Source: a virus. Taken from it: a stretch of 64,000 bases of DNA. A program made the position numbers and the translations under genes. The notes below the pieces were generated by a model. It had not been told where the DNA came from. It saw only the letters and a program-made list of their open reading frames with translations, and searched no databases. Below are positions 11,081 through 43,700 of this stretch, one piece after another. The DNA is taken from positions 25,436-89,435 of the IMG/VR virus record IMGVR_UViG_3300008107_000102. One strand, 5' to 3'. Every line of letters starts with the position of its first letter. Position 1 is the first letter of the stretch.

Positions 11081-11163
11081 GGGTTAGTGGCCGAGTAGTC
11101 GAAGGCGACAGACTGTAAATCTGTAGATTTAATTCCACGCTGGTGCAAATCCAGCTTAACCCA
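11081..11163 (+). tRNA. tRNA-Tyr (anticodon GUA)
   Basis: 83 bases with a long variable arm, as in bacterial class II tRNA-Tyr. The acceptor stem is GGGTTAG (11081-11087) with TTAACCC (11156-11162), discriminator A at 11163, no encoded CCA. The anticodon stem is ACAGA/TCTGT (11108-11112/11120-11124) with the GTA anticodon at 11115-11117. The T stem is GCTGG/CCAGC; its loop reads TGCAAAT instead of the usual TTCAAAT, a minor oddity. A promoter lies just upstream. Confidence 0.9.
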
Positions 11164-13591: not shown

Positions 13592-14030
13592 TAGACCGTG
13601 GTACTACGTTATATATGAGGGCCCCGATTCTTATATAGGTGTCACTGATTATCTCGCAGCCGTGGCGTATGATAGGCAGCCTAGTCTAAGTTTTATGACG
13701 CAACAGAGTAGATTACTCAATTACCTGAAGAAGGGCCGCGCAGATTATAAGGCTAGTATCCGCCTAGCCCGTGCTATTAGGCCCGCTAGTGTAGCAGGTT
13801 ATGGTAACTATCTAGTAAGACAGAAGGGACACCTATCAGTTATTGAGCGGTGTGATGTTAGTACTCCTCATAGTCATAAGTATTTGAAGTCCGCGCGGGC
13901 CGAGTTGATTATCTATCTCGAATGCGAGATGAACCGATGGAGTAAAACAATTAGGACTATACGGAGATTAGATGCAGATAACGTTCAACGGCCCCTATCA
14001 GATGCTGCTGGGTCCAGCAGGGAGTGGTAA
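13575..14030 (+). CDS. Hypothetical protein between kinase and helicase
   Basis: 151 residues overlapping both neighbours. No recognised domain. An aromatic N-terminus (RPWYYVIYEGPD) is followed by a basic, helical middle (KKGRADYKASIRLARAIR). The last 19 residues are read through the start region of the helicase gene in another frame. Possible nucleic-acid contact, by composition only. Confidence 0.5.
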   Translation: MSILDNRPWYYVIYEGPDSYIGVTDYLAAVAYDRQPSLSFMTQQSRLLNYLKKGRADYKASIRLARAIRPASVAGYGNYLVRQKGHLSVIERCDVSTPHSHKYLKSARAELIIYLECEMNRWSKTIRTIRRLDADNVQRPLSDAAGSSREW

Positions 14031-15150
14031 GACAACATACATACAGAGTTTGAGTAAGGCCCTCATCACTAGTAGTACCGGCGTGAGCGCTATTAATGCA
14101 GGTGGTACTACTATTCACGCGGCCCTCCAGTTCTTCGACACTACTAGTCTATTACGCTCCGCTTCTAGTGGAAAGCTGACCACTCAGCTACAGGCTATAT
14201 CTAATGCATTTGATACTCTAGTCATAGACGAGATCAGTATGTTACATGGCCCTCAACTAACTATTATCCATCACGTAATGGAGAAGAGTAACATAAATAT
14301 GAATCTCCTACTCGTGGGAGACTTCTGTCAGTTACCACTAGTACCAGATAAAAAGGTCACTAGCACGCCAGTCTATCAAACAGACTGCCTACAGAGCTTC
14401 GATATACAGTACTTACGAGAGGTCAGGCGCCAGAATGACCCCGGCTTTATACAGGCGCTGACTAGCGTAAGAGAAGGGCGGCCTCACGAAGCAGTAGATT
14501 GGTTCATAGATAATGTAGAGTTTGTCAATCAGCTCGAAGATAACTACGCAGGTACTACTATCCTGCCTACTAATGATAGTGTAGATAGATATAACGCCCT
14601 GCACCTAGCACAACTAGAAGGGCCTAGTCGCCTCTATACTAAGAATTACGTTATACCGAAGGGGGGGAGGACCGCTCCTGAGTGGGGCCAAATACCTGAA
14701 TCAGTAGAGCTAAGGAAAGGCGCGCGCGTTATTCTACTTCGTAATAGACTACCTACATACGCTAATGGCGATATCGCCATAGTCAAGGAGCTCATGACTA
14801 ATACTATACTGGTGACAGTAGAACGTACCGGTCAGGAGACTATCATTGAATACGTGACACGAGATAATAAAGAGCTCGGCACTAACAAACTATTGGGCCG
14901 CTGCCACTACTTACCCGTTAGACTGGGCTATGCCCTTACTGTCCATCGTAGTCAGGGGCTCACGCTTAATAACGTACAGGCTCGTCTCAGTAATTTACGT
15001 TGGCTCAGCGGGGGCCTCTATACTATTCTTAGTCGTGTACGTCACTATAGCGGCCTCCGCCTGATAGGTACACGATCCGCCTTCTGTGATAGTTGCTATA
15101 TAGAGCCCTCTATCCTTAAATTCTATAATCGGTTAGGTACTAAATCATGA
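13972..15150 (+). CDS. SF1 helicase of the Pif1/RecD/Dda type
   Basis: 392 residues. Walker A GPAGSGKTT (14-22), a Pif1-type motif Ia (STGVSAINAGGTTIHA), motif II VIDEISM, motif III LLVGDFCQLPLV and a motif V-VI region ALTVHRSQGLT. The size suits a Dda-like 5'-3' helicase that clears forks and helps start replication. The start lies inside the upstream gene, and the stop overlaps the next ATG. Confidence 0.85.
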   Translation: MQITFNGPYQMLLGPAGSGKTTYIQSLSKALITSSTGVSAINAGGTTIHAALQFFDTTSLLRSASSGKLTTQLQAISNAFDTLVIDEISMLHGPQLTIIHHVMEKSNINMNLLLVGDFCQLPLVPDKKVTSTPVYQTDCLQSFDIQYLREVRRQNDPGFIQALTSVREGRPHEAVDWFIDNVEFVNQLEDNYAGTTILPTNDSVDRYNALHLAQLEGPSRLYTKNYVIPKGGRTAPEWGQIPESVELRKGARVILLRNRLPTYANGDIAIVKELMTNTILVTVERTGQETIIEYVTRDNKELGTNKLLGRCHYLPVRLGYALTVHRSQGLTLNNVQARLSNLRWLSGGLYTILSRVRHYSGLRLIGTRSAFCDSCYIEPSILKFYNRLGTKS

Positions 15151-15469: not shown

Positions 15470-15496
15470 CCCCCCTTGCACTTTGGCAGGGGGGTT
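15470..15496 (+). terminator. Intrinsic terminator-like hairpin
   Basis: CCCCCCTTGC pairs with GCAGGGGGG (one bulge) around a short loop, followed by TTCTATT. It ends the kinase-helicase operon. Confidence 0.65.
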
Positions 15497-15582: not shown

Positions 15583-15909
15583 ATGCATCAAAATATAAGC
15601 ACCGATGAAGCTATCAAGCTACTCAAAGAGGATGATAATGCTGATTGGTCATGGTCGGGCGCTGAGGCTTTAGTTGGGTATCTAGAAGATTTAGAGGATA
15701 GCCTTGATGAATCTATCGAATTTGATAGAGTCGCTATCCGGTGCGAGTATTCAGAATACTCTAGCGCCCTAGAAGCGGCCGAACATTACGGCTTTATACC
15801 AGAAGATGATGAGGATGAGGATGATGTAGAGTCATCTGCTATTACTTATCTAGAAGACAAAACAACAGTAATTAAATTTGAGGGGGGCGTTATTATTCAA
15901 CAATTTTAA
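15583..15909 (+). CDS. Conserved acidic phage protein ('VAIRCEYSEY' family)
   Basis: 108 residues, strongly acidic. ALVGYLEDLED, then IEFDRVAIRCEYSEYSSALE matches a small protein family I remember from many phages, without known function. An EDDEDEDD run (about residues 73-80) is typical. It has its own leader after the terminator. Possibly an early host-takeover protein or DNA mimic, by charge only. Confidence 0.6.
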   Translation: MHQNISTDEAIKLLKEDDNADWSWSGAEALVGYLEDLEDSLDESIEFDRVAIRCEYSEYSSALEAAEHYGFIPEDDEDEDDVESSAITYLEDKTTVIKFEGGVIIQQF

Positions 15910-15997: not shown

Positions 15998-16384
15998 ATG
16001 CTTACTGAATTTTTGCATGATTGGGTCAAGTCTGAGCCTCACATTTGTCGGTATGGGTGGGGTACTTTTCGGAATACCTTTTTTATCCAACTATCTTGGG
16101 GTGATTGTATTTCTATCTCTACCTCTGATCCTGATCCCTTTTTGTTAGATCGGGGGTCGCTTGCTAAGTTGATCTATTTTTTCCAAATGCGTCTAGATAG
16201 CTCTGGTTATGGTTGGGTTATTCAACGATTACCTAATAGTTATACTGTGACAGTTAGTGTGAACCCCAATATTTACGAGACTTCGCGTTGTTTTGTCTCT
16301 CGACAAGAGTCTCTCATTGAGGCTTTGCTAGAGGTGTATTTAAAGGTGGTTGCTTATAAGAAAAAGTCGTTTTACGTCCAGTAA
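15998..16384 (+). CDS. Hypothetical protein upstream of the array
   Basis: 128 residues. The ATG follows GAGGG at a normal distance. The second half (GYGWVIQRLP, VTVSVNPN, then a helix with SLIEALLEVYLK) resembles the small alpha-beta phage 'ABA sandwich' proteins, but this is a weak impression. It ends 15 bases before the first array gene and probably shares its transcript. Aromatic-rich, yet it lacks the array's motifs. Confidence 0.5.
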   Translation: MLTEFLHDWVKSEPHICRYGWGTFRNTFFIQLSWGDCISISTSDPDPFLLDRGSLAKLIYFFQMRLDSSGYGWVIQRLPNSYTVTVSVNPNIYETSRCFVSRQESLIEALLEVYLKVVAYKKKSFYVQ

Positions 16385-16399
16385 AAGAGGAGGCACCTG

Positions 16400-16609
16400 A
16401 TGAAAGAGATTAGTACAAATTATTGGGCGCCCCATAATCATTATGGGGCGCCTCATAATGATTATCTATGGGACGCACCTATACCTATTACTAACCCGCC
16501 AATAGCAAACGGTGATACTTTATACTATAGGTTCTACGTTTATAATGCTGGGATGTTTTATTATATACTGACACTGTTCGCTAAGGACAATTTCTATAAA
16601 GATAATTAA
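16400..16609 (+). CDS. Array unit 1
   Basis: 69 residues. First gene of the array and the only one with a textbook ribosome-binding site (GAGGAGG, 16387-16393, six bases before ATG). It has a doubled WAPHN..GAPHN, then PIPITNPP and TLYYRFYVYN. The usual acidic tail is short (AKDNFYKDN). It does not overlap unit 2. Confidence 0.85.
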   Translation: MKEISTNYWAPHNHYGAPHNDYLWDAPIPITNPPIANGDTLYYRFYVYNAGMFYYILTLFAKDNFYKDN

Positions 16610-16631
16610 TAGTACCAAAAGGAAACATTTG

Positions 16632-16865
16632 TTGAAAAAGATTAATCCAAACTATTGGGCGCCCCATAACGATTATGGGGCGCCGTATTATGAATGGGAC
16701 GCGCCTATACCTATTACTAACCCGCCAATTTTAGCAAACGGTGATACTGTATACTATAGCTTCTACGGTTATAATGTTGGGGGGCCCTCCAAGTTTTACG
16801 ATAGACTGGCAGGAAATGTATATAATATTCTATATGAGGGTGACTATTTCTATGAAGGTTATTAA
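16632..16865 (+). CDS. Array unit 2
   Basis: 77 residues. The homologous start is a TTG (16632; 16629 is also TTG), with AAGGAAA upstream. Full plan: KKINPNYWAPHN, PIPITNPP, VYYSFYGYN, KFYDRL, ILYEGDYFYEGY. Close to unit 4: units 2-3 and 4-5 look like a duplicated pair. Confidence 0.85.
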   Translation: MKKINPNYWAPHNDYGAPYYEWDAPIPITNPPILANGDTVYYSFYGYNVGGPSKFYDRLAGNVYNILYEGDYFYEGY

Positions 16866-17058
16866 TTCTAATGGTTGGGCTCCTCGTAATACTAGATGGG
16901 CTCCATATTGGGGTGAACTTGTACCTATTACTAATCCTCTGATAACAAGTGGTTATAGTTTATACTATAAGTTTCATACTTATAATAATGAAGGGCTTGC
17001 TTGGTTTTATCGTAAACTATCGCCAGATGAGAATGATTATCTCTATGAAGAAGATTAA
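16852..17058 (+). CDS. Array unit 3
   Basis: 68 residues, 14-base overlap with unit 2. Starts MKVINSNGWAPRN; has VPITNPL, SLYYKFHTYN, AWFYRKL and tail DENDYLYEED. Nearly identical to unit 5. Confidence 0.85.
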   Translation: MKVINSNGWAPRNTRWAPYWGELVPITNPLITSGYSLYYKFHTYNNEGLAWFYRKLSPDENDYLYEED

Positions 17059-17263
17059 TTGTAATGGTTGGGCACCCCATAATCATTATTTATGGGACGC
17101 ACCTATACCTATTACTAACCTGCCAATTTTAACAAACAGTGATATTTTATATTATAGCTTCTACGTTTATAATGCTGGGGGGCCCGCCAAGTTTTACGAT
17201 AGACTAGCAGGAAATGTATATAACATTCTAGATGAGGACAATTACTTCTATGAAGATGATTAA
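17045..17263 (+). CDS. Array unit 4
   Basis: 72 residues, 14-base overlap. Starts MKKINCNGWAPHNHY; PIPITNLP, ILYYSFYVYN, KFYDRL, tail ILDEDNYFYEDD. Nine tyrosines in 72 residues. Close relative of unit 2. Confidence 0.85.
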   Translation: MKKINCNGWAPHNHYLWDAPIPITNLPILTNSDILYYSFYVYNAGGPAKFYDRLAGNVYNILDEDNYFYEDD

Positions 17264-17456
17264 TTATAATGGTTGGGCTCTTCGCAATACTAGATGGGCT
17301 CCATATTGGGGTGAACTTATACCTATTACTGATCCTCTAATAACAGATGGTTATAGTTTATACTATAAGTTTCATACTTATAATAATCAAGGGCTTGCTT
17401 GGTTTTACCGTAAACTATCATTAGATGAGGATGATTATCTCTATGAAGATTATTAA
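17250..17456 (+). CDS. Array unit 5
   Basis: 68 residues, 14-base overlap. Near-copy of unit 3, 398 bp downstream, with a few substitutions (WALRN for WAPRN, tail DEDDYLYEDY). Confidence 0.85.
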   Translation: MKMINYNGWALRNTRWAPYWGELIPITDPLITDGYSLYYKFHTYNNQGLAWFYRKLSLDEDDYLYEDY

Positions 17457-17721
17457 TTGTAACGGTTGGCTTAGTAGTAATTGGGGTCCAGATATGTCTA
17501 TATCTAAATCTATTACTGACCCAGCGATTCTAGCAAACGGCGATAATTTATATTATACATGGTTCTATGAAAGTATAATTGGGGCCTATACTCTTGAATT
17601 AGACAGGTTATATGTTTCTGTCGACTGGTTTTATTGTAAATTGCTGCTTTATCAGCGCTCTAACATAGACTGGTACATTGATATTTTAGGTGAGGATAAC
17701 TATCTCAATGAAAATAATTAA
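17443..17721 (+). CDS. Array unit 6 (long form)
   Basis: 92 residues, 14-base overlap. Middle contains YTLELDRLYVSVDWFYCKL, the 'YTPEL' subtype, plus an extra segment (YQRSNIDWYIDI) before tail EDNYLNENN. Confidence 0.8.
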   Translation: MKIINCNGWLSSNWGPDMSISKSITDPAILANGDNLYYTWFYESIIGAYTLELDRLYVSVDWFYCKLLLYQRSNIDWYIDILGEDNYLNENN

Positions 17722-17893
17722 TCCAAATTGCTGGGCTCTGTATAAATGGGGTTTACCTGTATTTATCACCGCTCCGCCAGTAGCAAATATCAATAATTTA
17801 TACTATAGCTTCTATCTTTATAATTCTAAAGGACTTGCTATATTTTACTATAGTCTGTCGTGGGGTAGTATTTTTTGTTATATGACTTTCTAG
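17708..17893 (+). CDS. Array unit 7, frameshifted tail
   Basis: 61 residues, 14-base overlap. Normal start (MKIINPNCWALYKW) and NLYYSFYLYN, but the tail is out of frame: an acidic tail (FLEEGNYFYEDY) is present in another frame after 17880, while this frame stops at TAG 17891. Confidence 0.75.
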   Translation: MKIINPNCWALYKWGLPVFITAPPVANINNLYYSFYLYNSKGLAIFYYSLSWGSIFCYMTF

Positions 17894-17911
17894 AGGAGGG
17901 GAATTATTTCT

Positions 17912-18148
17912 ATGAAGATTATTAACGACTGGCCTTCACTTAATAAGTTGAATATACCTGCTGCTGATCCGCCGGTTTTAGCAAACAGTGGTAGTTTATA
18001 CTATAGCTTTTATCATTACCACTACGAAAGTATGAGTGTGGGTCTCTGGGTCTATCTACCTGAATTAAATAAGTTTTATGCTTCTATCAAGTTGTTTTAT
18101 TATAGACTGACATTGTTAGCTAAGGACAATTTCTATGAAGATAGATGA
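17912..18148 (+). CDS. Array unit 8
   Basis: 78 residues. No overlap with unit 7; GAGGAGGGG lies 10 bases upstream. Combines SLYYSFYHYHYE with YLPELNKFYASIKLFYYRL, so it carries both middle modules. Tail AKDNFYEDR, stop TGA. Confidence 0.8.
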   Translation: MKIINDWPSLNKLNIPAADPPVLANSGSLYYSFYHYHYESMSVGLWVYLPELNKFYASIKLFYYRLTLLAKDNFYEDR

Positions 18149-18317
18149 TAGTGACAAATGGGCCCCACGTAATAAGTTGAATATACCTAGGCCTATTAGA
18201 ACTTATTATTACGATAACACAGGTCTTGTAACTATCGACCGGTTTTATTATAGACTGGTAAGCGTGTTTTATTATAACACTCTAGATGAGGACGATTATT
18301 TCGATGAAGATAATTAA
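18135..18317 (+). CDS. Array unit 9
   Basis: 60 residues, 14-base overlap. Starts MKIDDSDKWAPRNKLN; a shortened middle leads to DRFYYRL and tail TLDEDDYFDEDN. Confidence 0.8.
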   Translation: MKIDDSDKWAPRNKLNIPRPIRTYYYDNTGLVTIDRFYYRLVSVFYYNTLDEDDYFDEDN

Positions 18318-18486
18318 TTGTAACAATTGGACCCCACGTCATAAGTTAAATCTACCTATGATATCTATACCTATTACTGACCCGCCTGTTGACCTACAGG
18401 TGTATTTTGCTTATAGTCGAGAAGTCGCCTGGTTTTATTATAGAATGGAAGAATTTGGGATATACGGCTTTCTGAATAGGGGGTGA
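18304..18486 (+). CDS. Array unit 10, frameshifted tail
   Basis: 60 residues, 14-base overlap. MKIINCNNWTPRHKLN, PITDPPVDL, AWFYYRM. A run of five G (18478-18482) shifts the frame so that it stops at TGA 18484 instead of reading GDYFNESD. Confidence 0.75.
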   Translation: MKIINCNNWTPRHKLNLPMISIPITDPPVDLQVYFAYSREVAWFYYRMEEFGIYGFLNRG

Positions 18487-18494
18487 TTACTTCA

Positions 18495-18671
18495 ATGAGA
18501 GCGATTAGTTGTAATAAGCTTAAGTACTTGTTTTTTTATTATGAGGATGTGACCATCGAGAGTCATATTCCTGAATTTAGCAGGTGCTCTATCGACCGGC
18601 TTCACTATAAACTAACAGCTGTGATATACGACATTCTATATGGGGATGATTATTTCGATGAAGATGATTAG
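18495..18671 (+). CDS. Array unit 11
   Basis: 58 residues, eight bases after unit 10's premature stop. MRAISCNKLKYLFFYYED, HIPEFSRCSIDRLHYKL, tail LYGDDYFDEDD. Second subtype; near relative of unit 28. Confidence 0.8.
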   Translation: MRAISCNKLKYLFFYYEDVTIESHIPEFSRCSIDRLHYKLTAVIYDILYGDDYFDEDD

Positions 18672-18885
18672 TTGTAATAATTGGGCCCCGTGTAATCAGT
18701 TGAATATACCTATACCTATTACTGACCCGCCTGTTGACCTACAGGTATTATTAAGCAAATTGTATTTTGCTTATAGTCCTGGGAGACTCGCCTGGTTTTA
18801 TTATAGACTGGGAGAATTTGTGATATATGGCTTTCTGAATGAGGCCTTAAGCTTGGGGGGCAATTACTTCAATGAGAGCGATTAG
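18658..18885 (+). CDS. Array unit 12
   Basis: 75 residues, 14-base overlap. MKMISCNNWAPCNQLN, PIPITDPPVDLQ, LAWFYYRLGE, tail LGGNYFNESD. Related to units 10 and 23. Confidence 0.8.
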   Translation: MKMISCNNWAPCNQLNIPIPITDPPVDLQVLLSKLYFAYSPGRLAWFYYRLGEFVIYGFLNEALSLGGNYFNESD

Positions 18886-19033
18886 TTGTAACAAGCTTAA
18901 TTACTTTTTTTATTATTGTGAGCGTGCGGGTTTCACCTATACTCCTGAATTAAGGTTTTATGCTGTCGACCGATTTTACTATAGACTGTATATACACATA
19001 GTAGATAAATATATATTCTATGAAGATGATTAA
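18872..19033 (+). CDS. Array unit 13 (short)
   Basis: 53 residues, 14-base overlaps on both sides. MRAISCNKLNYFFYYCE, YTPELRFYAVDRFYYRL, tail KYIFYEDD. Second subtype. Confidence 0.75.
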   Translation: MRAISCNKLNYFFYYCERAGFTYTPELRFYAVDRFYYRLYIHIVDKYIFYEDD

Positions 19034-19193
19034 TTGTAATGTTTTCAAACTTGCTTTGTTTTACAACTGGACTATCAAGAATAAGCTAAAGGCCCGTATA
19101 CTTATTATCTCTACCGGCGGGTTTTACTATAGACTAAGAACTGTGATATACGATATTCTATATGAGGATGATTATTTCGATGAGAGCGATTAG
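19020..19193 (+). CDS. Array unit 14
   Basis: 57 residues, 14-base overlaps. MKMINCNVFKLALFYNW, NKLKARILII, GGFYYRL, tail LYEDDYFDESD. Contains the 'NKLKA' module of the third subtype. Confidence 0.75.
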   Translation: MKMINCNVFKLALFYNWTIKNKLKARILIISTGGFYYRLRTVIYDILYEDDYFDESD

Positions 19194-19371
19194 TTGTAAC
19201 AATTGGATTTTGAATAATGATTATTTCAATGCTTTGTACTTGTTTTATTATTATGAAGAGCTGGGTCTCGAGATTTATACTCCTGAATTAAACAAGTGCT
19301 GTGGCTCTATCTTCCAATTTTACTATAGACTGGCCTATAAACTGCGCTCTTATCAGCGCGCTTTAACATAG
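19180..19371 (+). CDS. Array unit 15, frameshifted tail
   Basis: 63 residues, 14-base overlap. MRAISCNNWILNNDYFNALY, IYTPELNKCCGSIFQFYYRL. After SYQRAL the frame is lost relative to unit 6 and it stops at TAG 19369, so the acidic tail is missing. Confidence 0.7.
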   Translation: MRAISCNNWILNNDYFNALYLFYYYEELGLEIYTPELNKCCGSIFQFYYRLAYKLRSYQRALT

Positions 19372-19410
19372 ACTGGTATATTGATATTTTAGGTCAGGAT
19401 AACTATCTCT

Positions 19411-19620
19411 ATGAAAACAATTAATCCAAATTGCTGGGCCCCGTATGAGTGGAATGTACCTGTACCTATCACTGCCCCGCCAGTAGCAAATATCAATAAT
19501 TTATACTATAGCTTCTATCTTTATAATTCTGGAGGACTTGCTATACTTTACTATAGACTGTCGGGGATAGTATTATATAACGTTCTATATGAGAATGATT
19601 ATTTCGATGAAGAAGATTAA
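19411..19620 (+). CDS. Array unit 16
   Basis: 69 residues, 39 bases after unit 15's early stop. MKTINPNCWAPYEW, PVPITAPPVANINN, LYYSFYLYN, LYYRLSG, tail LYENDYFDEED. Near relative of unit 7. Confidence 0.8.
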   Translation: MKTINPNCWAPYEWNVPVPITAPPVANINNLYYSFYLYNSGGLAILYYRLSGIVLYNVLYENDYFDEED

Positions 19621-19798
19621 TTCTGACAATTGGGTTCCTCGTAATAGAAGAGACCCGCATGTGGCTCCATACGTACTCACTATCACTAATCCACCTCTAG
19701 TGAGCGTTGATAATTTATACTATAGCTTTTATCTTTATAATGATGATGGGGGGCTTGCTATGTTTTATACTATAGTGGCCCTACCATTATTTCTATGA
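19607..19798 (+). CDS. Array unit 17, truncated tail
   Basis: 63 residues, 14-base overlap. MKKINSDNWVPRNRRDPH, LTITNPP, LYYSFYLYN. After LAMFYTI a deletion and frame change give VALPLFL-stop; FYYRL and the acidic tail are lost. Confidence 0.7.
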   Translation: MKKINSDNWVPRNRRDPHVAPYVLTITNPPLVSVDNLYYSFYLYNDDGGLAMFYTIVALPLFL

Positions 19799-19989
19799 AG
19801 AAGATTAATTCTGACAATTGGGCTCCTCGTAATAGAAGAGACCCGCATGCGTGGACTTCATACATACCTATTACTAATCCGCCTCTAGCGAGCGTTGATA
19901 ATTTATACTATAGCTTTTATGATGGGGTGCTGTTTTATTATATACTGGAAAGAGTAGCATCATATAACATTCTAGATGAGGACAATTAA
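19795..19989 (+). CDS. Array unit 18
   Basis: 64 residues, four-base ATGA overlap. MKKINSDNWAPRNRRDPHAW is nearly identical to unit 17. Tail shortened to ILDEDN by a stop inside the usual junction. Confidence 0.75.
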   Translation: MKKINSDNWAPRNRRDPHAWTSYIPITNPPLASVDNLYYSFYDGVLFYYILERVASYNILDEDN

Positions 19990-19993
19990 TTAT

Positions 19994-20182
19994 ATGAAGA
20001 AGATTGATTGTAATGGTTGGACTCCGCGTAATTTAAATGGGCTCCGTATGAATGCACCTGTACCTACTATTGTTCTTCCAATAGCAGATAATAATAAGTT
20101 ATTCTATAACTTCTATCTTTATCATGGTGGAGGGCCTGCTTGGTTTTACCATAGATTGTTATATTTTTATGAATATGATTAA
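19994..20182 (+). CDS. Array unit 19
   Basis: 62 residues from the homologous ATG (MKKIDCNGWTPRN). An upstream in-frame ATG at 19976 (MRTINY...) would recreate the standard 14-base overlap with unit 18. LFYNFYLYHGG, AWFYHRL; short tail FYEYD. Confidence 0.75.
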   Translation: MKKIDCNGWTPRNLNGLRMNAPVPTIVLPIADNNKLFYNFYLYHGGGPAWFYHRLLYFYEYD

Positions 20183-20369
20183 CGGTTGGCCTTCACGTAG
20201 TAAACTGAATAAATATATTACTGACCCGTCGATTTTAGTAGACAGTGATAGTTTATACTACAGTTTCTATAACTATAACTTTCATACTTATAACGCTGGG
20301 GGGCCCGCCAGGTTTTACCATAGACTAGCGGGAGTAGTGTTGTATAACATTCTAGATGAGGACAATTAA
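20169..20369 (+). CDS. Array unit 20
   Basis: 66 residues, 14-base overlap. MNMINGWPSRSKLN, YITDPS, SLYYSFYNYN, ARFYHRL, tail ILDEDN. The same altered junction as after unit 18 follows, so this junction was copied as a block. Confidence 0.75.
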   Translation: MNMINGWPSRSKLNKYITDPSILVDSDSLYYSFYNYNFHTYNAGGPARFYHRLAGVVLYNILDEDN

Positions 20370-20373
20370 TTAT

Positions 20374-20562
20374 ATGAAGATAATTAACTGTAATGACTGG
20401 GCCCCACGTAATACGTTAGGTGTATCTACACCTATTACTAACCCGTTGATAGCAAACCATAATAGTTTATACGATAACTTTTATGTCAGAGGAGTCGCTT
20501 GGGTTTACCATAACCTATCTGAGCCTACTATAACCTACCATTATTTCTATGAAGATGATTAA
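20374..20562 (+). CDS. Array unit 21
   Basis: 62 residues from ATG 20374 (or 20356 with a 14-base overlap). MKIINCNDWAPRN, TPITNP, LYDNFYVRG, AWVYHNL, tail HYFYEDD. Confidence 0.75.
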   Translation: MKIINCNDWAPRNTLGVSTPITNPLIANHNSLYDNFYVRGVAWVYHNLSEPTITYHYFYEDD

Positions 20563-20806
20563 TTGTAACGATTGGGCGCCTCATAGTAGTAAACTGAATA
20601 TATATATTGACCCGCCGATTTTACCAAATGGTGATAATCTATACTATCTATGGTTCTATCGTTACTACCATGAAAGCATGGGTCTCGGGGCCTATATCCC
20701 TGAATTGGACAAGTTACATGTTCCTATCGACTTGTTTTATTATAAACTAGCATGTTTGTTATATGACTTTCTAGGGGAGGGGGATTATTTCGATGAAGAT
20801 GATTAA
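20549..20806 (+). CDS. Array unit 22 (long form)
   Basis: 85 residues, 14-base overlaps. MKMINCNDWAPHSSKLN, NLYYLWFYRYYHE, YIPELDKLHVPIDLFYYKL, tail LGEGDYFDEDD. Both middle modules in one protein, like units 6 and 8. Confidence 0.8.
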   Translation: MKMINCNDWAPHSSKLNIYIDPPILPNGDNLYYLWFYRYYHESMGLGAYIPELDKLHVPIDLFYYKLACLLYDFLGEGDYFDEDD

Positions 20807-20996
20807 TTGTAATGACTGGGCTCCGCGTAATAACTTGAATATACCTATTACTGATCTGCCCGTTGACCTACGTAAATTATTAATCAAATTGTATTTTGCT
20901 TATAGTCCTGGAAGACTTTTTTATTATAGATTAGTAGAACTTGTAATATATAGCTTTCTTAATAGAGAGGACGATTACTTCAATGAGAGTGATTAA
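20793..20996 (+). CDS. Array unit 23
   Basis: 67 residues, 14-base overlaps. MKMINCNDWAPRNNLN, PITDLPVDL, LYFAYSPGRLFYYRL, tail NREDDYFNESD, the in-frame version of unit 10's broken tail. Confidence 0.8.
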   Translation: MKMINCNDWAPRNNLNIPITDLPVDLRKLLIKLYFAYSPGRLFYYRLVELVIYSFLNREDDYFNESD

Positions 20997-21198
20997 CTGT
21001 GACGAGCACATTCAGATAAGTGACTTATTAGTTAAGCTCGATTATTATATTGCCTTGTTTTATTATGAGAACATGGATCTCGATACCTATACTCTTGAAT
21101 TAAGTAAGTTCTCTGGCTCTATCAACCTGTTTTATCATAGATTAGAACATTTATATAGCATTCTAGATGAGGACGATTATTTCGATGAAGGTGATTAA
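20983..21198 (+). CDS. Array unit 24
   Basis: 71 residues, 14-base overlaps. MRVINCDEHIQIS, ALFYYENMD, YTLELSKFSGSINLFYHRL, tail LDEDDYFDEGD. Lacks the Trp-Ala-Pro segment. Confidence 0.8.
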   Translation: MRVINCDEHIQISDLLVKLDYYIALFYYENMDLDTYTLELSKFSGSINLFYHRLEHLYSILDEDDYFDEGD

Positions 21199-21358
21199 TT
21201 GTGACGCCCCGTTTTATTGTCATGAGGGTATATGGCTTATAACTTATATACCTGAATTAGACAGGTTCCATGGTTCTATCAACCTGTTTTATCATAGATT
21301 AGGAGATGAGTTATATAACATTCTAGATGAGGATGATTATTTCAATGAAGATGGTTAA
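21185..21358 (+). CDS. Array unit 25
   Basis: 57 residues, 14-base overlaps. MKVINCDAPFYCHEGIWL, YIPELDRFHGSINLFYHRL, tail LDEDDYFNEDG. Confidence 0.8.
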   Translation: MKVINCDAPFYCHEGIWLITYIPELDRFHGSINLFYHRLGDELYNILDEDDYFNEDG

Positions 21359-21512
21359 TTGTGACGCCCTGTTTTATTGTATGAGGGTATGTGTCTTTAC
21401 AACTCCTGTACCTGACTAATTCAGGTACCATGGTTCTATCAACCTGTTTTATATAGGAGATGAGTTATATAACATTCTAGATGAGAACGGTTATTTCGAT
21501 GAAGATAATTAA
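21345..21512 (+). pseudogene. Array unit 26, frameshifted
   Basis: Starts MKMVNCDALFYC like unit 25 but stops after 24 codons. The matching remainder (HGSINLFY, DELYNILDENGYFDEDN) follows in other frames. Homology runs to the standard junction at 21512. Confidence 0.8.
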
Positions 21513-21738
21513 TTGTAACAATTGAGCCCCACGTAATAAGTTGAATATACCTATATCTATTACTGATCTGCCAGCTGACCATCACGGATTATTAATATGT
21601 TATGAGGGTATGTGGCTTATAACTTATATACCTGAATTAGACAGGTTCCATGGTTCTATCAATCTGTTTCATCATAGATTAGAAGATGTGTTATATAGCA
21701 TTCTAGATGAGGACGGTTATTTCAATGAGATGGATTAG
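21499..21738 (+). pseudogene. Array unit 27, nonsense at the conserved Trp
   Basis: Opens MKIINCNN, then TGA where relatives have TGG (Trp9). The frame is otherwise intact through PITDLP, YIPELDRFHGSINLFHHRL and tail LDEDGYFNEMD. Re-initiation at TTG 21541 would give 65 residues. Confidence 0.75.
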
Positions 21739-21898
21739 TTGTAACAGGCTTAATTACTTGTTTTATTATTATGAGGATGTGACCATCGAGACTCATATTC
21801 CTAAATTTAGCAGGTGCTCTATCGACTGGTTTTACTATAAACTAACAGCTGTGATATACAATATTCTATATAAGTATACACTCTATGAAGATGATTGA
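21725..21898 (+). CDS. Array unit 28
   Basis: 57 residues, 14-base overlaps. MRWISCNRLNYLFYYYED, HIPKFSRCSIDWFYYKL, tail LYKYTLYEDD. Near relative of unit 11. Confidence 0.8.
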   Translation: MRWISCNRLNYLFYYYEDVTIETHIPKFSRCSIDWFYYKLTAVIYNILYKYTLYEDD

Positions 21899-22073
21899 TA
21901 ATGATCTCGGGCTTGCTTTGTTTTATAACTTGATTCTGTACAATTGGAATGTGTATAATAAGCATAAAGCCTCTATACCTATTAACGCTATCAACTTGTT
22001 TTACTATAGACTAGTGGTTTTTATATATAACGCTCTAGATGAGAGTGATTACTTCAATAAAGAATATTTCTAA
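21885..22073 (+). CDS. Array unit 29
   Basis: 62 residues, 14-base overlap. MKMIDNDLGLALFYNL, KHKASIPINAINLFYYRL, tail LDESDYFNKEYF. Confidence 0.75.
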   Translation: MKMIDNDLGLALFYNLILYNWNVYNKHKASIPINAINLFYYRLVVFIYNALDESDYFNKEYF

Positions 22074-22251
22074 CGATTGTTTGTATGACATTACCTTATT
22101 TTACTACTGGAATGTGTGTGATAAGTTGAAGGGCCACACACATATTAACCCTACCGGCGAGTTTTACTATAGACTAGTGGCTTTTATATATAACGCTCTA
22201 GATGATAATGATATTCTAAATGAGGATGACTACTTCAATGAAGATGGTTAA
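22039..22251 (+). CDS. Array unit 30, relocated start
   Basis: 70 residues. The homologous start codon is ATA (22057; compare ATG at 22829 in unit 34), so the upstream in-frame ATG at 22039 is the likely start, giving a 35-base overlap. KNISNDCLYD, GEFYYRL, tail LNEDDYFNEDG. Confidence 0.65.
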   Translation: MRVITSIKNISNDCLYDITLFYYWNVCDKLKGHTHINPTGEFYYRLVAFIYNALDDNDILNEDDYFNEDG

Positions 22252-22459
22252 TTGTAACAACCTGTTTTGTCATTATATTCATAGCAATAAAGGGGGTGTA
22301 CTTACTATTACTGACAAGCTAAAATTAGCAAATGGTGAAAGTTTATACTATAGCTTCATCTTTATTGTATATAGAGGGCCCGCCAGGTTTTATCATAGAC
22401 TGGCAAATATGTTATATAACGTTCTAGATGAGGGTGGTTATTTCGATGAAGATGATTGA
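22238..22459 (+). CDS. Array unit 31
   Basis: 73 residues, 14-base overlap. MKMVNCNNLFCHYIHSN, LTITDKLKLANGE, SLYYSFIFI, ARFYHRL, tail LDEGGYFDEDD. Confidence 0.75.
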   Translation: MKMVNCNNLFCHYIHSNKGGVLTITDKLKLANGESLYYSFIFIVYRGPARFYHRLANMLYNVLDEGGYFDEDD

Positions 22460-22670
22460 TTATTGGCCTATGCTTAATAATAAGCTTATGGCATCTATAT
22501 CTAGTAGAGAGCCTTCCACTGATATAAATGTAAGAAAGTATTATAATCATAATTATTTTAACCTTGCTATGCATTACAGTATTTTTTGGGTGTCTGCTTC
22601 GACATCTTTGTTTTACTTCAGATTGGGTAACTGGCTAGGAGTATGTTTTTATGAAGACTATTATATGTGA
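22446..22670 (+). CDS. Array unit 32
   Basis: 74 residues, 14-base overlap. MKMIDYWPMLNNKLMASI; a divergent middle, then SLFYFRLGN; tail replaced by CFYEDYYM. Transition to the third subtype. Confidence 0.7.
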   Translation: MKMIDYWPMLNNKLMASISSREPSTDINVRKYYNHNYFNLAMHYSIFWVSASTSLFYFRLGNWLGVCFYEDYYM

Positions 22671-22845
22671 CGAGTGGACTCTACACAATAACCTTAGAGC
22701 CTCTATGCTTATTAAGCCTTTCGCTAGGGCAACCGGCTTAGTGCCTAGGTTTTATTTAATAAGCAGGTACTACATCGGTTTGTTTTACTCTAGATTATAT
22801 AACGCTCTAGATGAGAGCGATTACTTCAATGAAGAATATTTCTAA
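22651..22845 (+). CDS. Array unit 33
   Basis: 64 residues, 20-base overlap. MKTIICDEWTLHNNLRASM, FYLISRYYIGLFYSRL, tail LDESDYFNEEYF. Third subtype (HNxLxASMLI). Confidence 0.75.
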   Translation: MKTIICDEWTLHNNLRASMLIKPFARATGLVPRFYLISRYYIGLFYSRLYNALDESDYFNEEYF

Positions 22846-23107
22846 CGATTGTCTGTTACCTTGGATTTTGAATAATGATTATCTCAATGCCTTGCGCTTG
22901 TTTCATTATTATGAAGAGATGGGTCTCGAGATTTATACTCCTAAACTAAGCGAGTGTTGCGGCTCTATCTTCCGGTTTTACTGTAGACTGGTAAATATGT
23001 TAGAAAACATCCTAGATAAGGATGATATTCTAGATGAGGGCGATTATTATCTTGAGGATGGGCAATTCGATGAATATGAGGACGGTTATTTAGATGAAGA
23101 TGATTAA
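22829..23107 (+). CDS. Array unit 34 (long acidic tail)
   Basis: 92 residues, 17-base overlap. MKNISNDCLLPWILNNDYLN, IYTPKLSECCGSIFRFYCRL. The tail is expanded by repeats: ILDKDDILDEGDYYLEDG followed by QFDEYEDGYLDEDD. Confidence 0.8.
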   Translation: MKNISNDCLLPWILNNDYLNALRLFHYYEEMGLEIYTPKLSECCGSIFRFYCRLVNMLENILDKDDILDEGDYYLEDGQFDEYEDGYLDEDD

Positions 23108-23261
23108 TGATTATTGGTCTTTGCACAATAAGCTTGAGGCCTCTATGCTTATTGAGTTTTCCGTTGGGGCAAATTACTTAGTAACCGAGTCTTATTTAAT
23201 GGGCAGGTATTATGTCGGTTCGTTTTACTCTAGATTGAATTATAAGAGTTTGTTTTTATGA
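23094..23261 (+). CDS. Array unit 35
   Basis: 55 residues, 14-base overlap. MKMINDYWSLHNKLEASMLI, SYLMGRYYVGSFYSRL; no acidic tail (ends YKSLFL). Confidence 0.7.
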   Translation: MKMINDYWSLHNKLEASMLIEFSVGANYLVTESYLMGRYYVGSFYSRLNYKSLFL

Positions 23262-23440
23262 AGAGAATTTCTACTTATTGGATTTTATATAATAATTGGG
23301 TTCTGTGTAATAATGATTATTTCAAATTGAGTTTGCTTTACCACTGGACTCTCGACAATAAGCTCAAGGCCTCTATACTTATTACTTTTATAGATCAATT
23401 TTACTATAGACTGCTATACAATTATTTCGATGAAGACTAA
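23258..23440 (+). CDS. Array unit 36
   Basis: 60 residues, four-base ATGA overlap. MKRISTYWILYNNWVLCNND, LDNKLKASILI, DQFYYRL, short tail YNYFDED. Confidence 0.7.
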   Translation: MKRISTYWILYNNWVLCNNDYFKLSLLYHWTLDNKLKASILITFIDQFYYRLLYNYFDED

Positions 23441-23547
23441 ATTGTAATATTTGGATTCTGCACAATAAGCTGAAGGCCTCTATACTTATTACCTCTGTCG
23501 ACCAGTTTTACTATAGACTGGTAAGTGTATTGTCTAACACATTCTAG
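23430..23547 (+). pseudogene. Array unit 37, broken
   Basis: Starts MKTKL-stop. The matching body (WILHNKLKASILITSVDQFY, YRL) lies in another frame and ends at TAG 23545-23547. Confidence 0.75.
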
Positions 23548-23628
23548 ATGAGAATGAGTAAGTATAACATTATACATAAAGACGGTTATTTCAATGAAGA
23601 TAGTTTCAATGAAGATGATTATGATTAA
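23548..23628 (+). CDS. Acidic-tail relic of unit 37
   Basis: 26 residues: MRMSKYNIIHKDGYFNEDSF then NEDDYD. It preserves only the tail and the junction to unit 38. Whether it is translated is doubtful. Confidence 0.35.
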   Translation: MRMSKYNIIHKDGYFNEDSFNEDDYD

Positions 23629-23770
23629 TGATTGGTCTCTACACAATAAGCTTAAGGCCTCTATGCTTATTGAGCCTGCAAGTTATTTAGTAACCCGGTC
23701 TTATTTAATGAGTAGGAATCATGTCGGTTCGTTTTACTCTAGATTGAATCATAAGGGTTTGTTTGAATGA
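23609..23770 (+). CDS. Array unit 38
   Basis: 53 residues. MKMIMINDWSLHNKLKASML, SYLMSRNHVGSFYSRL; ends KGLFE. Third subtype, near relative of unit 35. Confidence 0.7.
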   Translation: MKMIMINDWSLHNKLKASMLIEPASYLVTRSYLMSRNHVGSFYSRLNHKGLFE

Positions 23771-23898
23771 AGACTATTTCTAACTATTGGATTTTCGACT
23801 GGACTCTCAACAATAAGGTCAAGGCCTTTATACTTATTACTCTTATAGATCAATTTTACTATAGAATGCTATACAATTATTTCGATGAAGACTATTAA
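23767..23898 (+). CDS. Array unit 39 (shortest intact unit)
   Basis: 43 residues, four-base ATGA overlap. MKTISNYWIFDWTLNNKVKA, IDQFYYRM, tail YNYFDEDY. It keeps start, core and tail modules with the middle deleted. Confidence 0.7.
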   Translation: MKTISNYWIFDWTLNNKVKAFILITLIDQFYYRMLYNYFDEDY

Positions 23899-24049
23899 TT
23901 GTAGTGATTGATCTCTGCACAATAAGCTGAAGGCCTCTATGTTTATGCCTGAACCCTACATTGGAACAGACAACTTAATACGCAAGTTTTATGATTGTAA
24001 TTCTTTCAGACTTGCCCTGTTTTATTACAGACTGGAATTTTTTGCATAA
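23885..24049 (+). pseudogene. Array unit 40, nonsense at the conserved Trp
   Basis: Last unit. MKTINCSD then TGA where relatives have Trp9, as in unit 27. The frame continues as SLHNKLKASMFM, FRLALFYYRLEFFA-stop. Confidence 0.75.
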
Positions 24050-24081: not shown

Positions 24082-24528
24082 ATGGATTCTGATCTTCATA
24101 TAATGAACAAACAAGAAACAGCCCAAAAAATATTCAATTTCTGCCAAAAAACTTACCCAGAGCTAAAGTGGTCATTTACATCTTTAGGCAGAACTCAAGA
24201 CATGATTTACGGGTATCGCCCTATTCTTAATTCTATAAATGGAATACAAATAGATATAAGTATCAATAGTAACAACTTTTATAGTAGTGACGGTTCACCT
24301 AGCGATTTTAGAAATTACATAGAAGGTCGATCTACTATTTCTAATTTAGATTGGGAAGGAAGTTTTTTTGTATGGATAAATGATAGAAAAAACAGTAAAA
24401 TCTCATTCAAGAAAAGTGGGACTGCTAAACATGGAGAATTAAATCTATGGCGTAAAAAAGGAACACGAATTATGATTGATATTTATGAATTTATCGAAAC
24501 TGAAATACAAACCGAGGTGACACTATGA
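24082..24528 (+). CDS. Hypothetical AT-rich cargo protein
   Basis: 148 residues (141 from ATG 24103). No recognised family. A helical start (AQKIFNFCQKTYPELKWSF) is followed by a strand-rich domain with Trp/Phe-rich edges (WEGSFFVWINDRKN). Codon use is AT-rich and unlike the phage core or the array. Its stop overlaps the next ATG (ATGA), and the next product starts with a similar FCxKxY helix, so the two may be distant paralogues. Confidence 0.55.
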   Translation: MDSDLHIMNKQETAQKIFNFCQKTYPELKWSFTSLGRTQDMIYGYRPILNSINGIQIDISINSNNFYSSDGSPSDFRNYIEGRSTISNLDWEGSFFVWINDRKNSKISFKKSGTAKHGELNLWRKKGTRIMIDIYEFIETEIQTEVTL

Positions 24529-25194: not shown

Positions 25195-25404
25195 GTGGCC
25201 CTAGACGTTGGCGGTAGTAGTATATTAAGGTACCTGTTGAAAAAACTATCCGAGATATTCTTATGGAACGGGCCACGGGTAAGTGACATCACTTATCTCG
25301 AGCATATTGCCATTAACAGGCGATATGTATTAGTGTTAAAGTTTAAGCTTAGTTATTATAGTGCATTCATCCAATATACGGAGAGCGGTGACGAGAGAGA
25401 ATGA
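25195..25404 (+). CDS. Doubtful small protein before primase
   Basis: 69 residues from a GTG start, overlapping the possible long start of the primase gene. Codon use is phage-like. Composition is hydrophobic-basic (LRYLLKKLSEIFLW, YVLVLKFKLSYYSAF). No family recognised. It may instead be leader sequence. Confidence 0.35.
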   Translation: MALDVGGSSILRYLLKKLSEIFLWNGPRVSDITYLEHIAINRRYVLVLKFKLSYYSAFIQYTESGDERE

Positions 25405-25414
25405 GCAACTGATA

Positions 25415-26581
25415 ATGGAGCGGCTAACTATACCAGAGCTACTAAATCTACGGCATGGTACTAATGATTGCCCTGCTTGTGGGGGCCGCGGTAAGCTGAG
25501 CGTGTATCCGCACTATATGAAGTGCTGGAGGACTAGTTGTGAGTTGAACGCAGGTATGGGTCTAGTCAATGCCTGGCGCTGGCATACTAAGCTTGATTAT
25601 GCTGGGGCTATGCAGCAGTTAGAGGCCCGCGCTGGTATACGTCAGGCCCGCGAGGTTATGGATGCTCGCAGTATAGTACTAGAGAGCGCGCTAGAGGCCT
25701 ATCATTATTATTTTGATACTACGCCTGCTGCTCAGGATTATATACTGCGGCGGGGCTGGTCCCTCGATCTAGCTCGTAGCATTGGTATAGGGTATGCTCC
25801 TCCTAGTGGTCTACGTCAATTCGATATAGATCATGAGGCATTAGCCCGCGAGGGTCTGATTAAGGAGGACGGCGAGGATTACTATAGGGAACGCATTATA
25901 TTCCCTATACGAGATACACGAGGCCATCTAGTCCATATGGTTGGTCGCTATATAGGTAGTAGTGAGAGGGCCCCCCGCTATAAGGATACGCGGGCCGCTA
26001 TTAATAGTAAGCGCTATCTCTATCTAGAACATTGTCTTAAGGAGTATAGTAAGCACCCAGCTCGCGAGCTATATATAGTTGAGGGCCCGCCTGATGCCAC
26101 ATCACTAATAGGTCGTGGTTTACCTGTAGTGGGACTATTGGGTCTGGAGTATCTATTATGTCACACCAGTAAGTTCAAGCCCTTCCGTCGTATCACATTT
26201 ATATTCGACTCAGATAAGTATAGCGATGATCATCCTACTCATGCCGGTGTATATAAGAGCTGGGTGCGTATCATACCTCAACTAGTTCAGCTACAGGTTA
26301 ACTTACCATTAGCTGAGCTTATGACGTATATGGTTGCTGATTATAAAGATATTAATGAGTGGTTGGTAGCAGAGCCTCGCGTTAATGCTGCTGATACTAT
26401 CAATGCTAACCGCATATTATTCGTAGATGATTTACTAGCTCAATGGGGGCCCGACATTAGTCATCACGTAGATATATTGCGGGTATTGACTGCTACTCAT
26501 TCCCCCTTAGGGCTACTGGCTCCTTATGTAGATAATCAATTAGGGCCCCTTGAATATGCCTCTCTACTATTCGGATCGTGA
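25415..26581 (+). CDS. DnaG-type primase
   Basis: About 388 residues from ATG 25415; an in-frame GTG at 25361 would add 18. An N-terminal zinc ribbon has Cys19, Cys22, Cys37 and Cys42 (CPACGG...KCWRTSC). The core has FPIRDTRGHLVHMVGR. The Toprim motif ELYIVEGPPDA, then the metal-binding IFDSDKY, identify the catalytic domain. The C-terminal helicase-binding region is short. It synthesises RNA primers and sits just after the array and its AT-rich cargo. The stop overlaps the next start as TGATG. Confidence 0.85.
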   Translation: MERLTIPELLNLRHGTNDCPACGGRGKLSVYPHYMKCWRTSCELNAGMGLVNAWRWHTKLDYAGAMQQLEARAGIRQAREVMDARSIVLESALEAYHYYFDTTPAAQDYILRRGWSLDLARSIGIGYAPPSGLRQFDIDHEALAREGLIKEDGEDYYRERIIFPIRDTRGHLVHMVGRYIGSSERAPRYKDTRAAINSKRYLYLEHCLKEYSKHPARELYIVEGPPDATSLIGRGLPVVGLLGLEYLLCHTSKFKPFRRITFIFDSDKYSDDHPTHAGVYKSWVRIIPQLVQLQVNLPLAELMTYMVADYKDINEWLVAEPRVNAADTINANRILFVDDLLAQWGPDISHHVDILRVLTATHSPLGLLAPYVDNQLGPLEYASLLFGS

Positions 26582-43083: not shown

Positions 43084-43700
43084 TGTTCATTGACCTCTAT
43101 ATTATCTGTATAGGAGACCTCTACCGGCACTACCGGTGTATCGTATTCTACTACTACGGGATCATTATTAGGTAATTGTATCTCTGCCTTGAAGCGCTCT
43201 GCTCGGCTAGTGCTCTGGTCCTTGACGGTGTAATCTACACTAGCACCCAGTGCATTTTTAACAATGATGCCTGTCAGTATATCGGGGTAATCAAATAAAC
43301 TAATTATATTGTTTACTGGTGTTACCTCTATACGCTCGCGGCCGGTAGACATACCTATCCACCAGTATCGTGTGTCTACTAATGACTCCTGATAGTCCAG
43401 GACTACGCGCCCTGGTACCTTAGATTGTTGCCTCCATCTCCAGATCTCTATCCTATAGGCATTCTCTAGCCTGAGTGCCTCGCTGGCTCGCGGCGTGCTG
43501 TACTGGGGGTAGGCCAGCGGTATATACTCCGGCTCGCAGGGGGCCAGCAATAAGCGTAGGGGTATAGTCGACTGGAGATGTATTCTCTGACTGGTGCCAG
43601 GCGTGACCCCACGGAGAGAACGCGGCGGCGTGATATACAGGTAGTATCGCCACGAGCCGAATAATTCCTGGAACTTAAATACAACTGGAGATAATTTCAT
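43065..43700 (-). CDS. Structural hypothetical protein
   Basis: 211 residues between terminase and the giant protein. Strand-rich with a basic, aromatic N-terminus (GSWRYYLYITPPRSL) and a beta C-terminal half (IQLPNNDPVVVEYDTPVVPV). No family recognised; a tail or connector role is likely from position. Confidence 0.5.
   Translation of the reverse strand: MKLSPVVFKFQELFGSWRYYLYITPPRSLRGVTPGTSQRIHLQSTIPLRLLLAPCEPEYIPLAYPQYSTPRASEALRLENAYRIEIWRWRQQSKVPGRVVLDYQESLVDTRYWWIGMSTGRERIEVTPVNNIISLFDYPDILTGIIVKNALGASVDYTVKDQSTSRAERFKAEIQLPNNDPVVVEYDTPVVPVEVSYTDNIEVNEQWNRIY

Follow-up and report, generated by a model that had tools for sequence, protein, structure and literature searches.

A 64,000-nucleotide stretch of viral DNA (hereafter the window, bases 25436–89435 of the 89-kb IMG/VR record IMGVR_UViG_3300008107_000102) carries at 16400–24049 an array of 40 paralogous small genes, all on the plus strand, of which 36 are intact and encode 43–98 amino acids (aa) and four are broken. 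The reading we favor, with rather more confidence than doubt, is that these genes form a translationally coupled polycistronic array yielding a variable pool of small proteins that is most likely directed at the host. The architecture, in which a coupled chain, a translated pool and recombining copies are combined, is well supported, and within it we infer both the coupling as it would actually operate and the timing of expression. As to function, we lean toward host-directed binders or inhibitors, with a bulk or redundant dosage close behind, and the near-neutral evolution of the units suits both.

The units were delimited by frame-by-frame reading together with an iterated profile, which gave 42 matches on the plus strand and none on the minus strand within 16400–24049, two of the broken units being counted twice each. 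The coordinates, strand, unit size and approximate copy number given in a preliminary description of this DNA all hold, and the elements that it listed as shared (MKxIN, LYYSFY or YTPEL, FYYRL and an acidic tail) are borne out, as is its mix of intact, frameshifted and nonsense copies. Phage origin and a paralogous family in a single orientation are likewise supported.

Junctions between units

The junctions are the best-conserved part of the array. Across the arrays of eight genomes, 109 of 143 overlapping pairs share exactly 14 nucleotides (nt), ATGAAGATGATTAA, and a second class of overlaps measures 4 nt and 1 nt, the 4-nt form being seen at the end of unit 17 (19607–19798; ATGA) and of unit 35 (23094–23261; type D, with SFYSRL). 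The unit that follows a 14-nt overlap lies in the −1 frame, which produces a regular frame walk. In the junction logo a purine-rich GAGGA occupies −16 to −12 and is followed by GATTATTTC and the ATG, and the start of unit 23 (20793–20996) is the canonical junction, GATTATTTCGATGAAGATGATTAATTGT. A 30-base junction consensus is matched 18 times in the window, as against 0.00 expected in shuffled sequence.

Three properties of these junctions bear on what is being conserved. The codon bearing the AT of the ATG may freely be aspartate, asparagine or tyrosine, and it ends in T in 143 of 143 cases compared with 71 per cent elsewhere, a figure that is partly circular through the calling of starts, whereas the count of TTYNATGA against TTYNACGA in the eight arrays (234 and 6) is independent of start-calling. 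At the glutamate codon five codons upstream, which occupies the Shine–Dalgarno position, GAG outnumbers GAA by 64:2 as compared with 146:178 elsewhere (p = 2.6e-17, nominal like all junction p-values because the copies are related by descent). The junction DNA also survives where the usual frame of the preceding unit is lost (10.4 of 18 matches versus 4.9 in background, n = 58), as in unit 7 (17708–17893), whose frame is lost ahead of the tail, and many junctions with a gap or another frame still keep the start; in units 10 (18304–18486) and 15 (19180–19371) the tail frame is also lost. The fixed third base, the GAG bias and the retention out of frame together argue that the junction is a start signal rather than a protein motif.

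Net charge averages −3.3 in the last 14 residues, those that overlap the next gene, and +0.9 in the body of the unit. The acidic tail of the preliminary description is therefore present but almost wholly confined to the overlap, and it is best read as mainly a coding shadow cast by the Shine–Dalgarno sequence and start of the gene that follows. The case cautions that conservation at the tail of a protein can be the by-product of a neighboring start signal.

Stop and start overlap on the same strand and the downstream Shine–Dalgarno sequence lies inside the upstream gene, which is, so far as sequence alone can tell, the arrangement of translationally coupled genes. Coupling by termination and reinitiation is known for ATGA and TGATG gene pairs (PMC6728339; PMC10666635). 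Ribosomes would then read some 40 small open reading frames (ORFs) in a chain along one message, the stop of each unit falling just past the start of the next, within the 14-nt overlap and at a GAGG-like Shine–Dalgarno junction, so that a ribosome finishing one unit would be well placed to restart at the following one in the −1 frame. Most of the acidic tail (DEDDYFDEDD) would be the shadow of the next ribosome-binding site and start, and the product would be a pool of some 30–40 variant proteins of 43–98 aa whose sequence is nearly free outside a sparse aromatic framework (W, Y, FY..L). Unequal recombination would duplicate, delete and shuffle the units. Expression would most likely fall in the middle phase of takeover and replication, and the pool would most likely consist of small binders or inhibitors acting on the host from within, counter-defense in a defense-rich host being one example. 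The overlap rule illustrates how many small genes may be packed into, and translated from, one message.

Selection and turnover

When the units of the window were aligned with those of seven relatives, premature stops at aligned codons numbered 2, 1, 4, 4, 2, 2 and 2 against expectations of 16.6, 16.1, 17.9, 16.4, 19.6, 11.7 and 17.3, so that nonsense mutations are 4–16 times rarer than expected. The three codon positions otherwise change almost equally, as for example between the array of the window and that of phage Ma-LMM01 (12.1, 11.9 and 12.7 per cent), as compared with 3.6, 2.3 and 8.6 per cent in the flanking genes. For reciprocal-best units the ratio of nonsynonymous to synonymous change (pN/pS) is 0.54–0.70, and a neutral simulation gives 0.63–0.66 at the transition/transversion ratio seen (∼1.7–2.3); flanking genes show 0.16–0.20 at similar pS. 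Positive selection was suspected from the flat codon-position profile and rejected as proven, given that the neutral simulation returns the same ratio. Diversification is to all appearances permitted, and need not be favored.

Constraint is concentrated in five framework residues (W, Y, F, Y and L), at which pN/pS is 0.13 (0.09–0.20) as against 0.58 (0.53–0.64) in the remaining columns; these columns were picked from the same family, and their normal synonymous rate guards against mere recent descent. The constraint on the framework is on a par with that on normal phage genes. The frames accordingly encode proteins under selection, of which only the sparse aromatic framework is specified.

Copies are gained, lost and exchanged. 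Units 2 (16629–16865; type A, with a TTG start) and 3 (16852–17058) were duplicated in tandem as units 4 (17045–17263) and 5 (17250–17456), with a period of 398 bp and a match of 89 per cent, and in 7 of 35 units the 5′ and 3′ halves are nearest to different paralogs. Chimeras of types A and B are found at units 6 (17443–17721), 8 (17912–18148) and 22 (20549–20806). The array is largely collinear with that of contig G010 and rearranged relative to that of G006, and relatives retain recognizable orthologs whose order is mostly unchanged. Identity between relatives is lower in the array (82–94 per cent) than in the 6 kb of upstream flank (92–97 per cent). At the scale of isolates turnover is not fast, since the arrays of isolates CH01 and CH02 are identical, as are those of contigs G006, G007 and G008. 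The earlier suggestion of active expansion and decay accordingly stands as regards birth and death, copy number included, and needs qualifying in the word 'active'.

Units, locus and distribution

Unit types A, B, C and D occur together in the one array. Unit 1 (16400–16609) is of type A, has LYYRFY and lies just 3′ of a strong AGGAGG; unit 31 (22238–22459) is also of type A. Type B is represented by units 11 (18495–18671), 13 (18872–19033), 24 (20983–21198; YTLEL), 25 (21185–21358) and 28 (21725–21898), and type C by units 14 (19020–19193), 29 (21885–22073), 30 (22039–22251), 36 (23258–23440) and 39 (23767–23898), of which unit 30 has ATA in place of the usual ATG, with an in-frame ATG available upstream. 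Unit 38 (23594–23770) is of type D, and unit 34 (22829–23107) has an extended acidic tail. The other units are 9 (18135–18317), 12 (18658–18885), 16 (19411–19620), 18 (19795–19989), 19 (19994–20182), 20 (20169–20369), 21 (20374–20562), 32 (22446–22670) and 33 (22651–22845).

The broken copies are units 26 (21345–21516; internal stop), 27 (21499–21738) and 40 (23885–24049), the latter two with TGA at a conserved tryptophan, and unit 37 (23430–23593), frameshifted past its start. Stops in broken units fall mostly at this early tryptophan codon, both in the window (units 27 and 40) and in relatives (G009, G010 and Ma-LMM01), leaving minigenes of eight codons with the remainder of the frame well preserved. 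Decoding of TGA as tryptophan was considered and rejected, as the stops at this site are TGA or TAG rather than TGA alone. Several type A units repeat a promoter-like TTTATA-N16-TATAAT where they encode LYYSFY (window 16519–19741); it is probably a by-product of the codons rather than a set of internal promoters.

The units match the PHROG cluster phrog_4393 (function unknown) over nearly their full length, with E values of 1e-5 to 1e-28 for most of them, the best belonging to unit 16, which also served as query in the search for relatives. Among divergent units 21 of 22 tested match the cluster; the type B unit at 18872 reaches only E = 0.066 with the phrog_4393 model, yet is matched by the iterated profile. 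The preliminary description, which recognized no known family, was mistaken to this extent, although a cluster of unknown function places the units in a described family only trivially.

By sequence identity the array belongs to a Ma-LMM01-like phage of Microcystis, genus Fukuivirus. Microcystis is a bloom-forming cyanobacterium. The first 24.9 kb of the window is 92–93 per cent identical to Ma-LMM01 and MaMV-DC across about two-thirds of its length, which marks the array as phage-encoded. It lies between genes for a RecD/Pif1-like helicase (13972–15150) and a DNA primase (25361–26581). Between the helicase and the array, on the plus strand, are a terminator-like hairpin (15471–15494; a 9-bp stem with 7 GC pairs, then T-rich), a 108-aa acidic ORF (15583–15909; phrog_9974, unknown) that is the first gene of the putative transcription unit, and a 128-aa ORF immediately 5′ of the array (15998–16384) that is unrelated to the units; on the 3′ side follow an unrelated 148-aa ORF (24082–24528) and a second terminator-like hairpin ahead of the primase gene (25302–25328), both also on the plus strand. 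Given the two hairpins, each a consensus match only, the array with the two small ORFs before it and the one after may form a single transcription unit. An Rfam search for structured RNA returned no match, and no second paralogous array was found elsewhere in the 89-kb record. Farther along, the minus strand at 34387–43083 holds a single 2898-aa ORF of unknown function that phrog_29513 matches end to end.

The array, which the preliminary description had thought unusual for a phage, is not peculiar to this one. The family is present at the same locus in nine of nine Fukuivirus records of the phage collection and in every IMG/VR contig whose sequence continues sufficiently beyond the helicase; four helicase contigs lacking a match are short (4.7–8.2 kb) and end near the helicase. 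Profile matches number 42 in the window, 40 in G010, 36 in each of G006, G007 and G008, 30 in each of CH01, CH02, DH01 and DL01, 26 in Ma-LMM01 and 22 in MaMV-DC, so that complete arrays span 22–42. Many IMG/VR contigs (L015, L016, L017, L019 and L025) break off within the array or shortly before it, as would be expected if its repeats disrupt short-read assembly, and metagenomic copy numbers may be underestimates.

No array was found in phages outside Fukuivirus, including the nearest outgroup found, Microcoleus phage My-WqHQDG (34 per cent in the primase), which has none between helicase and primase, and no relatives were found on plasmids. Profile searches of cyanobacterial genomes were empty (0 of 7, and 0 of 293 at the level of the order), and the phrog_4393 model gave one spurious match among 390 genomes of the class, both absences being provisional in that the searches had no cyanobacterial positive control. 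That one weak match (L088) was rejected as arising by chance in AT-rich non-coding DNA, and with single-unit scan and profile searches empty, a host-derived origin was rejected as well. The alignment of units is too variable to give patterns for a distant-relative scan. The family looks like an invention of the genus, in which every known member devotes 4–8 kb of a ∼160–180 kb genome to 20–40 copies of one tiny gene.

An IS607-type resolvase/transposase pair, gp136 and gp135 (L009 3863–4471 and 2713–3885), separates array from primase in Ma-LMM01, lying directly between them. This pair has been used as a marker of lysogeny in published metatranscriptomics (PMC5584929), a use that may be confounded by a mobile insertion common to Ma-LMM01 and its host. 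The depositors of Ma-LMM01 annotated 42-bp and 56-bp repeats near early genes (L132 13272–13552 and 5837–5962; Ma-LMM01 43271–43551 and 35836–35961), and the gp137–157 array is not annotated as a repeat.

In RNA-seq of Ma-LMM01 infection, 162 of 182 clustered genes were middle, the early set being gp054–063, a separate cluster A1 comprising gp037–041, and the late genes numbering five, including gp086, gp087 and gp091 (PMC5780444). The array genes gp137–157 are not named in the main text of that study, and by elimination from the named early, A1 and late sets most of them are most likely middle-like. Ma-LMM01 with Microcystis NIES-298 is a published infection model.

Alternative explanations and known systems

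A host-directed role, taken as a step by itself, is tentative and on balance less likely than not. Microcystis is unusually rich in defense genes (PMC5780444), and a pool of small binders would suit such a host. Several observations weigh against the favored reading as a whole. The spacing of ∼11 nt between Shine–Dalgarno sequence and ATG is long, and amino-acid change outside the framework is not above neutrality, giving no positive sign of an arms race. Two AlphaFold predictions returned low-confidence helices with no confident fold (mean predicted local distance difference test scores of 54 and 64, predicted template modeling score of 0.26). Pfam, NCBIfam and PADLOC gave no significant match for the units and thus no homolog of known function, a catalogued counter-defense protein included, and a PDB search gave one weak and unconvincing match, to a cellulase (E = 0.019).

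It is possible, if on balance doubtful, that the array was instead amplified to supply much of one loosely specified aromatic-rich protein, such as a scaffold, condensate former or sponge, with the identity of each copy irrelevant and copies left to drift and turn over. Near-neutral evolution outside the five framework residues, amino-acid change no greater than neutrality predicts and the variation in copy number would all be natural outcomes of such a process. So might be the composition of the units, in which tyrosine makes up 11.7 per cent of residues compared with 4.1 per cent in other proteins of the window, the array accounting for 272 of 919 tyrosine codons counted. Upstream of the array, on the plus strand, is a gene for tRNA-Tyr (GTA) (11081–11163), which recurs within several kb upstream in every locus scanned (the window, L009–L014, L089–L094 and L096), and the stretches of Ma-LMM01 annotation examined hold tRNA-Tyr and tRNA-Met only. 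This tRNA may serve the tyrosine-rich array, a correlation that fits high demand. However, four distinct types coexist and orthologs keep largely the same order between relatives, which is not what interchangeable copies would lead one to expect, and a stronger promoter or ribosome-binding site would serve dosage equally.

That the array is recombining tandem DNA with little protein function, its frames kept open by nothing more than polarity, a premature stop being enough to block coupled translation downstream, is unlikely. The mean pN/pS near neutrality, the visible decay of 4 of 40 copies and the superior conservation of the junctions are all compatible with it, but coupling alone leaves unexplained the strong constraint on the W, Y, F, Y and L columns at a normal pS, and the array has been retained at the same locus throughout the clade at a cost of 4–7.6 kb.

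Mimicry of DNA or RNA by anti-restriction proteins akin to Ocr or ArdA, among the roles raised in the preliminary description, is highly improbable. Isoelectric points range from 4.1 to 10, and the many units at 4–5, together with tails rich in aspartate and glutamate, at first recommend it; about a quarter lie above 7, bodies are neutral to slightly basic, and the acid is confined to the overlap with the next gene. Neither a Pfam, NCBIfam or PADLOC relation nor a convincing PDB relative connects the units with such proteins. Least probable of all is that serial −1 ribosomal frameshifting joins the units into a single long polyprotein, for although most successive overlapping units step into the −1 frame and the 14-nt overlap is constant, frameshifting would need neither the near-invariant ATG nor the upstream GAGG, and the start is kept at many junctions with a gap or a different frame.

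The translationally coupled array with a host-directed pool remains our preferred reading, and it can be carried one speculative step beyond the host-directed role itself, to a recombining library whose short proteins vary around a fixed aromatic framework, are made at once by serial translational coupling and would equip a lytic cyanophage to meet a defense-rich host. This would give phages a counterpart of variable gene libraries, in which protein tails double as ribosome-binding sites; if counter-defense is its purpose, the phage strategy would rely on numerous variants in place of a few dedicated inhibitors.

Parts of this picture are already known, namely that the genes have been deposited and clustered, that tandem families exist and that translation may be coupled; an account of the array as such was not found in the literature searched, which did not extend to the 2008 genome paper. 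The phrog_4393 entry resembles the units in near-full-length sequence and is a sequence cluster only, silent on array, coupling and function. Homologous arrays, again flanked by RecD-like helicase and DNA primase, occupy this locus in Ma-LMM01 (MAP_137–MAP_157) and MaMV-DC (ORF134L–ORF144L), where they are smaller than that of the window and are annotated as hypothetical proteins with several units omitted. With tandemly arrayed multigene families that evolve by birth and death the array shares tandem duplication, mosaic copies, pseudogenes and copy-number variation, and it differs from them in its overlapping frames, its very small genes and its phage setting. Like known coupled gene pairs, its units lie on the same strand with short stop/start overlaps, those of 4 and 1 nt included, but unlike those pairs it repeats a fixed 14-nt overlap through some 40 paralogs, here known from sequence alone. 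What is new here is the extreme copy number and the overlap rule of the junctions, together with the mechanism that they suggest.

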